Source of the DNA: Daphnia pulex
Taxonomy: Eukaryota; Arthropoda; Branchiopoda; Diplostraca; Daphniidae
Assembly (NCBI RefSeq): GCF_021134715.1
Contig: NC_060028.1
Coordinates: forward strand, 3,556,501-3,620,500
DNA length: 64,000 nt
Direction: 5' to 3'
Position numbers and translations under genes: made by a program. This document shows positions 59,721 to 64,000 of this stretch, piece after piece. The notes below the pieces were generated by a model that saw only the letters and a list, made by a program, of their open reading frames with translations, searched no databases and was not told the origin of the DNA. The first letter of the stretch is position 1. Each line of letters begins with the position of its first letter.

Positions 59721-61728
59721 AGATCAAAAGACTACTTGTTAACACATTTTGTGTTAACGAGCTACAGCAATCTAATTTGTTTATCCCATGTGCATCTGTC
59801 AATCTATGAGGTCTTTTATCTACAACCAGACTATTCCATTGTCTAAGAGAAGCATTTAAATAAGCTGGTTGTTTCTTCTAATCATATATTGTTTATTAAT
59901 AAGTTAGTTTTCTAACTTTTCTGCAACTACCATTCTGCCTTAAGAAAGACTTTCCGTAAATGCATACTGTTTCCTTGTCTACTTCTAACTTTGAAATATG
60001 ACGTTGAAATCTTAAATAATTTTTTTAGCCCACTGCAACATCTCCAAAATGTGGTAGAAGCCATACGGATGAGTAAAAAGGATACATTTAGCATGCGGAA
60101 CACCACTCACGAAGAATATCAAATTTCGGTACGCTAGGCTGGACTTCTATCAACCGCTGTAAATTCTATCCGACTCCCACTTTACAAGCTATTAAACAGT
60201 TAGTTATTTACAGTGACTTTTTAAACAATTTTTCGGAAAAAATTGTTTGTTTTCTTCCCACAGGCTACTAGCTCGTGTCACTTCCTGTAGTACAAGAAAT
60301 ATTAGCTATACGTAACTAACTTACAATCAATATTAAACTAAACCATAATAGTCTTCACAAGTATATTCAAATGGATGAGTCTCCCTCTTGTAGTCTCTAA
60401 ACTATCAAAATTGCATCCTTAAAACAAGTATCGTGCTGTCACTCCAGTGTCAAGTATAACTGCAATAGGTTGCCTAAAAGTCAAAACAATTCTGGATTGT
60501 AGCTTTTATTACACTAATGATATCCAACTAAATAAGCTATAGCTGCAATTAAATTGACATGCCATTTTTTGTGGGAAATTCTGTCAAAACAACCAGACCA
60601 ACCAATTTTTTGGCAAAAATAGAACACAGTCCACTTTTGGAAAGAAATGTCTTACACAGTTTTGGGAGTGAGACCAGCCAAAAAAAATTTTAATATGAAG
60701 CCTACTTACCAAGAGCTCTTTCATAAGTAAAATTATAGCTCGTATCATTTAAAAAAATAAAGGTTAACACTTGAAAATAACAGTAAACATTCATATAATT
60801 GTCAACAACAACAATGAGCTAAACTTAACTTACATTTTCACCGCCAGATCACGTTAGACATGGATATTTTTTTATTACCACAAAAAAGGCAAATTCCTGG
60901 TCGAAATCCTCACTCAATCATGGAGGACTTAATGACGACTAGGCTATTATTATTTATTAAGATTAAGCGATTACAATTCTGAAATCACAAGAATGCTAAT
61001 ATATATTTTTTTAATTTCGCAAGCCGGAAAATTTTTTGTTTATTGATTTAGAAAACCAGGAACTGAAGAAAGGGCGAAGCAAAATCTCGAAGGCCCCACG
61101 AAGAGGCTTGATTCCTTTGGTCTACTCTTGAAGATCCATCAAGACCACTTAATGATCCAACACCAGAACATCGTAAAATTGTTTAAACCTTCCAAAATTT
61201 AGATGAAGCAGATGCGCAGCTGCATTAGAACTGATAGAAAAACAACCATAAACAACCAAACTGTGCCTGATATATTATTTAAAAACATTCTAGAACAAAA
61301 AAAATATAAAGTTATATGGCCAGCAAGCCCTGACATTGCAAGACGTGTAGGTGAAGAGGCTCCAGCAAGAGCAAGGGATACCTAGGATGTTTCATTTGCC
61401 CCTTTTTTATAATTTGGTATCTGCCTTACGGATTGGGGTGTGTTATCATGTTATATTAACGCCTATTTTTTATTTTTTCTGAAATTTTTTATTTAGGGGT
61501 CTCGCAATGTAAAATCCCAAAAAATCGCGTTTTTTTGCTATTTTTTTAATCTACCAGAGTATTAGGTTTTAAAATTTTTGCCTTTAGACAGTGTGTAGAT
61601 AATATGCTAACATAATAGCATTAAATTTTTCAAGTTTTTAGCATGAGTTTTAGGGGTCGCGCAATGGAATTTAATTAGTAACAAAATTGCCTATGTCATT
61701 GCAGGGAAGATTGATGTTTAATAATTAT
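59721..61728. other. No recognised feature
   Basis: AT-rich DNA. A 60-codon plus-strand frame (61203-61385) and an out-of-frame neighbour reading LEDPSRPLNDPTPEHRKIV near 61118-61180 hint at a decayed transposon protein I cannot identify. The phrase TTTAGGGGTC(T/G)CGCAATG occurs twice, near 61494 and 61649, in the same orientation. Confidence 0.4.
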
Positions 61729-61999
61729 TGCATTTATTTTGGTTAGAATGTTTCACTTTTTATATTTATTAAGTAACTTATTTGAAGTAATTGTCTGCAT
61801 AGAAAAGGTAATAAGTTCATACATAATGAAAATTAAATTCCACTATAACCGAATTTTACCCCTTTACGCAACTTCCAAAAGGCGATAGCGCGAAAACATT
61901 TGTTCATTTTTAGATAATCAAAGGCTTGCTATTTAGTTTTTTTATAACCAGAAAAAGTGAAAAACTAATAACATAGACATTCTAACCAAAATAAATGCA
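61729..61999. repeat. Element with 22-bp perfect inverted ends (MITE-like, 271 bp)
   Basis: TGCATTTATTTTGGTTAGAATG at 61729-61750 is exactly inverted at 61978-61999. The match continues weakly inward through a TTTCACTTTTT / AAAAAGTGAAA block. The interior is AT-rich and non-coding. Confidence 0.85.
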
Positions 62000-62431
62000 A
62001 AAATAATAAGCAATAAAGGTATGGCATGTATGGTAAAAGGGTATTTCCTTTTTGAAAAAAAAAATTTCGAACAAAGAAATCAAATGAAAGTTGATATTTC
62101 TACCGCCAGAGGATTTAGGGAACGATGAATACACTTCAGGCCATTGGTCTGAAAAGGCACCTCCTTTCGGGCCACCATAAGCGCTAGTTGTATGTTTATA
62201 AAACACACCGCGCCAACACCACTCTATCGATTCAGGCCTTCAGTCCATGACTCCATGCTTCAGTCGCGTGGTCGCACAGCATCGTTGCGGACGTACTGTC
62301 AATTTTGTCAAAGTTCTCATGGGAATTATAAATTCAAAACTTTCTTTCTCCGTTGCAAAACAATAAAAAAAATTAATTTGGGAAAAAGAATAACTAAGCA
62401 AAGTTTTCTTGCACGAACAAACATGGGGGGA

Positions 62432-62717
62432 GCATACGGGAATTCTAAAAGAGAATAATATACAAATTTCAATGAACGGTAAGGGTAGAAGCATTGATAA
62501 TATTGTGATTGAAAGATTCTTTAGAACTTTACAATATAATTGTATATTTATAAACGATTTTAAAAATATTAAAGAACTTAAAGATGGGATTAACAGATAC
62601 ATGGATAAATATAATAATCAAAGATTCCACTCAAGTATTGGCTATAAAAAACCGATGGGAAGTTTTTTTTACCCTTTTCTATTTACCTATCTGAGTAAAG
62701 ACACTTCCAGCAAATAG
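62432..62717 (+). pseudogene. IS3-family (bacterial) transposase OrfB, C-terminal fragment
   Basis: The frame reads GILKENNIQISMNGKGRSID followed by NIVIERFFRTLQ, FINDFKNIKELKDGINRYMD and KYNNQRFHSSIGYKKPM. This is the end of the rve/DDE integrase core of bacterial IS3 elements (IS3/IS150 type): the iSMsgkGrclDN box, the catalytic Glu in IERFF, and the closing YN..R.HSSLGY.tP. The upstream part with both catalytic Asp residues is missing, so it is 5'-truncated and inactive. Codon use is strongly A/T-biased (AAA, GAA, ATA, AAT), as in Rickettsiales and other AT-rich symbionts. Eukaryotic DDE families do not carry this signature. A fragment of bacterial mnmG follows 100 bp downstream. Confidence 0.85.
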
Positions 62718-62820
62718 TTCGTCCAACTTTACCCTATCATTAGTTAGATAAAATGACTTTCCTAAATATTGATGCTACAGCTCAAAAATAACAAACTGCA
62801 GCTGGAGACTTATCACCATA

Positions 62821-63003
62821 TTCCTAAAAACAATTCCTGGGCTTAAAAATGCTGTTATGTTAAAACCTGGTTACGCAATAGAATATGATTATGTTGATCC
62901 TAGAGAATTAAAAGCAACGTTAGAAACAAAAAAAGTCAAAGGATTATATTTTACGATAAAATCTAGGCAAATGAAAAGCTGGACTATTGACTTTTTTGTC
63001 TAA
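62821..63003 (+). pseudogene. mnmG: Bacterial mnmG (gidA) fragment, decayed
   Basis: MnmG is the FAD protein that, with MnmE, modifies uridine 34 of tRNAs. The frame reads [10 protein letters not shown], then [20 protein letters not shown], then [10 protein letters not shown]. This matches the conserved middle of bacterial MnmG (IPGLE...PGYA(V/I)EYDY.DPR.L...LE.K...GL(Y/F)F). The family continues AGQINGTTGYEEA; here it is [13 protein letters not shown] and a stop, recognisable but with an insertion and substitutions. Only about 45 of some 620 residues remain. The host mitochondrial homologue MTO1 is less likely: the [10 protein letters not shown] wording and AT-rich codons are bacterial-like and there is no intron. 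With the IS3 piece next door, it is best explained as inserted symbiont DNA. Confidence 0.8.
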
Positions 63004-63420
63004 TCATGAAAAAGATGTTTTTGTTTTTCTGATAATTTGCCAAAATGCTTGGCTTTTAACAATGCCAGATGTTCTATTTGGGGAATGCGAAAAAATTTAT
63101 TTACAAACAACTAGAAAAGGAGGGGGCTTATAGCTTAAGTAATTTTTTATAATGAACGTTGTCCTCGCTGTCAGGCTTGCTGTCGGAATTTTCCGAATCT
63201 ACACAAACAAAAAATAAAAATGTTCAAGGAGAATCGTTTTATTTCCCTACAGTTATAGTTACCAGTATTGCATTTCGATGCCAAGTTGTCTGACATTGAT
63301 TCGATGTTCATCTTCATATTCTTCCTGACTCTTTTTTTTCCAGCCATCTCTCCTTTCTAGCATTCCTCTTCTGCTGTTTGTTGTTTCGTTTCACCTCCAG
63401 TTACTGACCTTTCTCATCTC
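63004..63420. other. No recognised feature after the mnmG fragment
   Basis: Short AT-rich frames, for example MPDVLFGECEKIYLQTTRKG near 63063-63125, may be further bacterial-like debris but have no family match I can name. Confidence 0.3.
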
Positions 63421-63421
63421 C

Positions 63422-63504
63422 TTGGTCATTTTTATTCTGCTGAGCCCCATCATCTTCAGCTCTTTGGTCATTTTGGATTCTGCTGAGTCCCATCATCTTC
63501 ATCT
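63422..63504. repeat. Tandem duplication, 41-42-bp unit, two copies
   Basis: TTGGTCATTTTTATTCTGCT... (63422-63462) is followed by TTTGGTCATTTTGGATTCTG... (63463-63504); both contain CTGAG(C/T)CCCATCATCTTCA. On the minus strand it encodes a repeated MMGLSRIQNDQ / DDGAQQNKNDQ peptide in an 80-codon open frame (63401-63643) that I do not recognise. Confidence 0.9.
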
Positions 63505-63865
63505 GCTTTTTCAATTTCATATCCTTATGTAATCCCAATAATCTGTTACTATTAGTTACCTTGCTCATCCTTATCGCTTTTTTTATCCACACATTCATCC
63601 CTCTCTTCTGAACCATGGGAGACTTTCTCATCATCAGAATCATTGGAATAATCCCTATTAACCACTAGTTGTATTTCTTCAGCTAAAGAAGTTTTAAAAA
63701 GTAAAGTTAGCACTGATTTTGTGGTAACATTGTAATTCTTTTACCGCAGCATTCTGCGCACTCTTCACTGAGACGGTCGAGGCTGTAGTTAAAGCATCCT
63801 GATACGTTATAAAACATAAAGGAGGTACTGTCAATTTTTTCAAACTTTCGTGGGAATTGTCCAAC

Positions 63866-63943
63866 TTACCAAAATTGTAAGTGTTCACTTACAATTTTTT
63901 TACAAAGGACTGCGAAGATGAAGTTCACTTACAATTTTGGTAA
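63866..63943. repeat. Inverted repeat with 18-bp perfect arms near the right edge
   Basis: TTACCAAAATTGTAAGTG at 63866-63883 is inverted at 63926-63943 (CACTTACAATTTTGGTAA). A third copy of the half-motif, CACTTACAATTTT, lies between them near 63886, so two alternative hairpins can form. This may be the end of a small transposon cut by the window edge. Confidence 0.85.
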
Positions 63944-64000
63944 TTTTGACTGCGTACAAAAAATGAAGCAGCTCAGCAAAGGTCATGTAAGGACACTTTG

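Follow-up and report, generated by a model that had tools for sequence, protein, structure and literature searches.

A 648-bp insert at positions 62,432–63,079 of the window, the 64-kb stretch of the Daphnia pulex genome analysed here (G000:C12:3556501-3620500), consists of at least seven fragments of scattered bacterial genes, assembled as a mosaic in which they adjoin one another almost base to base. The most probable account, which we hold with considerable confidence, is a complex nuclear insertion of symbiont DNA captured by end-joining repair of a staggered break. The original prediction had placed a two-gene bacterial island at positions 62,432–63,003; both of its genes, an IS3 transposase and mnmG, are real and the start is exact, but the end falls 76 bp short and what had been taken for one degraded segment is a mosaic whose other pieces were missed.

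Insertion site in the host chromosome

The insert lies between two copies of GGGGA inside a host repeat. The left arm of the interrupted repeat (62,091–62,431, plus strand) is 90% identical to positions 1196–1538 of an unfilled copy (L003) and has further copies in L004–L007, and the right arm (63,080–63,609, plus strand) is 85% identical to positions 1534–2088 of the same unfilled copy, so that the matches of the two arms overlap there by 5 bp. A search of the insert's own genome (133,188,837 bases in 13 contigs) with positions 62,394–63,140 found a place, C12:3,047,710–3,047,803, on the same contig and 571 kb from the insert, at which the left-hand 38 bp of the query adjoin its right-hand 61 bp, with the middle absent. 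The unfilled copy reads CATGGGGGGAATGC; the window reads CATGGGGGGA, then the 648 bp, then GGGGAATGC. Since GGGGA is single in the empty copy and double in the window (62,427–62,431 and 63,080–63,084, both on the plus strand), positions 62,432–63,079 are an insertion flanked by a 5-bp target duplication.

Four further copies of the host repeat on the same contig (L004–L007) also lack the 648 bp, and three of them bear other sequence, about 300 bp, slightly upstream of the site. In all, the repeat occurs in at least five other places on C12 (2.37–3.05 Mb), always on the plus strand of the contig.

The G+C content of the insert is 0.29, against 0.42 and 0.37 in the host repeat flanks, in keeping with the AT-richness noted earlier. 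The contig that carries it is 10.7 Mb long, and both the window and the 9.9 kb around the insert are free of N. The precise joins, the paralogue with an empty site, the length of the contig and the absence of N bear out the view that Rickettsiales-like symbiont DNA resides in a host chromosome, as opposed to a contaminating contig. They also make it quite improbable that chimeric bacterial fragments were built into a host contig during library preparation or assembly: the 5-bp duplication is exact, an unfilled copy exists elsewhere, the contig is of chromosome size, and no target duplication would be expected from a ligation chimera.

The search of the own genome returned no second copy of the insert, of the IS3 piece or of the mnmG piece. 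The only other IS3-like place had an E-value of 0.39, and the only other mnmG-like place was an exon of a host MTO1-like gene (G000:C11:388865-388999), which is only 58% identical over the match; a host origin of the mnmG piece was rejected.

Several repeats were observed in the neighbourhood. Upstream of the insert, a 31-bp inverted repeat (61,721–61,751 and 61,977–62,007, 94% identity, about 225 bp apart) possibly represents the ends of a small host element. One copy of a 39-bp direct repeat (62,289–62,327 and 63,821–63,858, 87%) lies on each side of the insert; L004, L005 and L007 contain related stretches. The right-hand copy is followed directly by an imperfect palindrome (63,859–63,950, 73%). 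Pfam returned no match for the window's three longest open frames or for one frame from the flanks.

Bacterial pieces within the insert

The insert begins with a fragment of an IS3-family transposase (62,432–62,657, plus strand), truncated within the gene at both ends. Its predicted DDE core was recovered with both Pfam (rve_3, E = 3.2e-15) and NCBIfam (transpos_IS3, E = 4.4e-22). DNA homology was scored from position 62,441, and the same frame is open from 62,433. Over 62,441–62,657 the DNA is 78–83% identical to IS3 transposases of nine Rickettsiales genomes, the value for plasmids of Candidatus Megaera polyxenophila being 83%, and at the protein level 81 of the 343 genomes of the order match with E of 0.001 or better. 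After the residues KKPM, the nine closest relatives run for 11–17 codons more, into a common end sequence, whereas the window stops. We thus rejected a full IS3 element, with a complete transposase and terminal inverted repeats, since only about 75 codons of a truncated gene are present and the relatives extend further.

The mnmG piece (62,820–62,952, plus strand, 133 bp, 44 codons) belongs to the middle of the gene and reads on the same strand as the IS3 piece, both as predicted (Pfam GIDA, 6.2e-16; NCBIfam mnmG_gidA, 1.1e-16). It has matches in 307 of the 343 genomes; the best, with 93% of the matched residues identical, are in G217, G218, G220, G221, G223, G228 and G229, and DNA identity reaches 89% (G228). 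The apparent decay of this copy past the residues GLYF proved to be a junction, the last base of the mnmG piece being followed immediately by 35 bp of ccmF.

For the remainder of the insert, the search covered 19 genomes selected by means of the IS3 and mnmG pieces (17 with handles among G001 and G217–G233, plus G173 and G209), and the small pieces were named from NCBIfam. The spacing between IS3 and mnmG, put at about 100 bp beforehand, is in fact 162 bp (62,658–62,819) and holds two more bacterial pieces. One is a 36-bp piece of rsmD, encoding the 16S rRNA guanine-966 methyltransferase (62,747–62,782, plus strand, 12 codons, TIGR00095), with 97% identity to G225 and 92–94% in eight other genomes. 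The other is a reversed 36-bp piece of an IS66 transposase (62,784–62,819, minus strand, NF033517), 92% identical to two places in G231.

Beyond mnmG, the ccmF piece, from a heme lyase gene (62,953–62,987, plus strand, 35 bp, TIGR00353), is 91% identical to G231 and 89% to G228. It shares one T with a 36-bp piece of the ribonucleotide reductase alpha gene (62,987–63,022, plus strand, 12 codons, NF006577), which is 86% identical to G217, G218, G220, G221 and G223. The last piece (63,023–63,078, minus strand, about 55 bp, reversed) comes from near the N terminus of an IS66 transposase; over 63,025–63,078 it is 83% identical to G231 loci L174 and L175, the two loci having been read directly. The translated pieces agree with their genes, among them GDKSPVAVCYF and IEHLALLKAKHFGKLSEK / REQLALLKAKRYGKSSEK. 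Both IS66 pieces are thus reversed, and the other five identified pieces are forward.

An 89-bp stretch (62,658–62,746, no strand assigned) had no convincing match in the 343 genomes of the order, in G229 (DNA and six-frame protein), in the own genome or in phage records. The order-wide search returned scattered matches in 47 of the 343 genomes at E of 0.05 or better, the best (E = 2.1e-4) being in G292, outside the clade described below. A peptide look-alike of positions 62,660–62,695 in G229 was dropped, as its DNA is identical at 16 of 36 bases and antisense.

It should be noted that the whole-genome DNA searches used a word-based first pass with few candidates scored, so that matches can be missed. 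Because the match of 63,025–63,078 in G231 was missed by the genome search and found by direct reading of the locus, the absence of a match is weak evidence, and further copies or pieces beyond those detected may exist.

Specificity of the short matches

When the entire window was compared with the G229 chromosome (1,479,614 bp), all matches with E < 1e-4 fell inside the insert, and the best match outside it reached 45.5 bits (E = 0.004). As a control, the 310-bp region of the small pieces was shuffled once with dinucleotides preserved; the best score of this sequence in the 19 genomes was 37.4 bits (E = 0.0029), whereas the real pieces scored 61.7 (rsmD), 52.7 (IS66), 50.9 (ccmF) and 43.7 bits (reductase). 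For the IS66 piece at 63,025–63,078, which lies outside the shuffled control, the E-value covers seven 3-kb loci only.

Taken alone, the reductase piece has a bit score below that of the best match outside the insert. Its 12 codons nevertheless rank first of all six-frame positions in G229 (score 53, next 36), and it differs from G222 at four positions over 32 bp, all of them synonymous. The rsmD peptide also ranks first in G229 (55, next 33). The ccmF peptide ranks first there too, but its score of 38 lies within the shuffled range (maximum 40 among 30 shuffled peptides), and the ccmF assignment therefore rests on the DNA of G231 and G228. For the two IS66 peptides, G229 offers no good match.

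Joins between the pieces and their donor loci

Comparison of the donor sequences with the window gave readings of all joins except the two that border the 89-bp stretch. The joins IS66–mnmG, mnmG–ccmF and reductase–IS66 are blunt, ccmF and reductase have the single T in common, one extra base is present at rsmD–IS66 and at IS66–host, and one or two bases are common to host and IS3 at the left edge.

In G229 the counterparts lie at 140.2 kb (rsmD), 298.1 kb (mnmG), 626.8 kb (reductase) and 755.0 kb (ccmF), while the IS3 piece matches seven places. Transfer of one contiguous symbiont segment was rejected, IS3 and mnmG not being neighbours in G229. We also considered that the mosaic already existed in the bacterium, as a scrap-heap locus or a composite element, and entered the host as a single piece of 648 bp. 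The IS3 and IS66 pieces do indicate a donor lineage rich in mobile elements, in line with the seven IS3 places in G229; against this, the rsmD, mnmG, reductase and ccmF loci are 140 kb or more apart in that genome, and among the matches listed across the order, with few candidates scored per genome, no two pieces are adjacent in one genome. A pre-assembled mosaic is on these grounds unlikely.

Four of the pieces measure 35–36 bp, and IS3 and all four housekeeping pieces stand in sense on one strand. In addition, the housekeeping pieces have eight edges, of which six coincide with codon boundaries and the remaining two are one base off or ambiguous; the edges were counted by hand and the pattern was noticed after the fact. 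Random breakage does not predict such sizes and codon-phased edges. They are, together with the sense strand, the sole ground for a reading in which codon-phased fragments of symbiont RNA of about 36 nt, resembling ribosome-protected mRNA, were reverse-transcribed end to end, with template switching of the reverse transcriptase joining the cDNA, and sealed into a chromosome break. If true, this would be a route of transfer from symbiont to host through RNA. The two IS66 pieces are antisense, none of the joins has a poly-A or poly-T tract, and the pattern concerns four housekeeping genes only, with a chance probability near 0.02 (at least six of eight edges at 1/3 each). We regard capture of RNA as very improbable, and the pattern of sizes and codon phase may be due to chance.

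Donor bacterium

The rsmD, ccmF and reductase pieces, combined into one query, matched 41 of the 343 genomes of the order at E of 0.01 or better. An E-value below 1e-6 was reached in 10 of the 343, all with handles within G217–G231. In a tree of MnmG (46 rows, full-length except for the host exon, with the window piece omitted as too short and the bootstrap not fully settled), G001 and 14 genomes with handles between G217 and G231 formed one clade with support of 98/95. Nine of the ten genomes belong to it; the tenth, G227, has no mnmG match and is absent from the tree. Four of the 15 members of the clade (G001, G219, G224 and G230) gave no match to the joint query at E of 0.01.

In a tree of 132 nt, the mnmG piece itself grouped with this clade at 44/82. 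None of three other placements was rejected by approximately unbiased (AU) tests on the same 132 nt: with Rickettsia (p = 0.099), with host MTO1 (p = 0.113) and with G173 (p = 0.13), a genome that is probably Megaira, judging by its IS3 matches. As the single-piece tree is weak, the argument about the donor rests on the agreement of several pieces. The result of the AU test is the one point in favour of a processed or broken copy of host MTO1, an origin that has virtually no probability: the piece shares 40 of 44 residues and 118 of 132 bases with the closest bacteria, compared with 26 of 44 and 85 of 132 with the host exon, and six other bacterial pieces lie in the same insert. The bacterial origin of the mnmG piece suggested earlier is in this way upheld.

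Overall, the mnmG, rsmD and ccmF pieces match best within one clade of Rickettsiaceae, and the reductase piece ties with two genomes outside it, G087 and G179, which it matches equally well (86%). The IS3 and IS66 pieces are mobile and hold little information on the donor; G209 and the Megaera plasmids are among the best IS3 protein matches. One member of the clade, G220, is taken as RiCimp, a ‘Candidatus Tisiphia’ (Torix group Rickettsia) from a biting midge with a chromosome of 1,469,631 bp and one plasmid of 77,550 bp, as Table 1 of PMC9098888 gives them. By sequence similarity, the best explanation is that the donor was a bacterium close to ‘Candidatus Tisiphia’. The available text of PMC7992394 describes Torix Rickettsia as over-represented in aquatic insects, a bias that would suit a freshwater host. 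Within the open-licence literature, we found no report of Torix or Tisiphia infection in Daphnia, and titles and the opening lines of abstracts revealed neither a nuclear insertion from Tisiphia nor a comparable mosaic with a bacterial symbiont as donor.

Age of the insert

The original prediction had judged the insert old on account of its decay, and the comparison with relatives points the other way. Differences at the first, second and third codon positions number 6, 3 and 25 for IS3 against L099, and 2, 2 and 10 for mnmG against L128. Their concentration at third positions indicates that most of the divergence arose under selection in bacteria. Counted against 9 relatives for IS3, 15 for mnmG, 8 for rsmD, 2 for ccmF and 7 for the reductase, with the IS66 pieces left out, the window has 4 private bases among 302 first and second positions and 7 among 150 third positions. 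The residual change at constrained sites is thus about 1.3%, part of which is the donor's own, and this is small beside the 10–15% that separates the two copies of the host repeat.

Every identified piece has an open frame with neither a stop nor a frameshift, and none is long enough for a working gene. Given that the differences from relatives are mainly at third codon positions, the insert looks young. It is most likely without function.

Origin of the insert

The joins with the host, the paralogue with an empty site, the 5-bp duplication, the seven pieces from scattered loci and the sharp joins between them are shown directly by the sequence comparisons, as is the single clade in which the mnmG, rsmD and ccmF pieces match best. 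In the sequence of events that we propose, a double-strand break with a staggered 5-nt overhang would have arisen in the host repeat, and end joining, the presumed mode of repair, would have closed it while capturing and ligating at least seven short fragments in both orientations. The fragments would have come from the shattered genome of a Tisiphia-like bacterium, arriving together as degraded DNA, and this bacterium presumably lived in or near the host germ line.

The closest parallel is found in complex insertions of organelle DNA (numts, nupts and numins), which, according to the portion of PMC6215612 available, consist of several organelle DNA fragments captured at double-strand breaks by end joining. 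The fragments of complex numts and nupts described there are non-contiguous, occur in both orientations and meet at joins that are blunt or have 1–7 bp of microhomology. The present insert likewise shows scattered donor loci, mixed orientation, joins with 0–2 common bases or one extra base, and an identifiable host site. It differs from that account in that a bacterial symbiont takes the place of the organelle as donor, the pieces are as short as 35 bp, and a single insert of 648 bp is concerned. For insertions of this class, both the bacterial symbiont donor and fragments down to 35 bp are unusual.

Among transfers from endosymbionts, the Wolbachia ‘nuwts’ of arthropods and nematodes (PMC4299567, PMC5429809) also place DNA of a member of the Rickettsiales in a host chromosome. 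Many of them are large and contain much of the Wolbachia genome, according to the abstract of PMC4299567; here, in contrast, tiny scattered fragments of another genus were ligated. The arthropod HGT-chimeras outlined in the available section of PMC13389597 contain bacterial fragments as well, some of the cases in Daphnia pulex and D. pulicaria being very young, but those are host genes fused with foreign intervals, whereas the pieces described here are in different frames and show no sign of expression.

The mosaic means that DNA of a symbiont can reach an animal chromosome as a pool of fragments down to 35 bp in length. A whole-gene search would miss such fragments or, as happened here, misread their joins as decay. 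The mosaic is also a molecular record that the host lineage was once in contact with a Torix-type Rickettsia. With a genome-wide census of such micro-mosaics, the state in which symbiont DNA reaches germ-line nuclei would become directly measurable.
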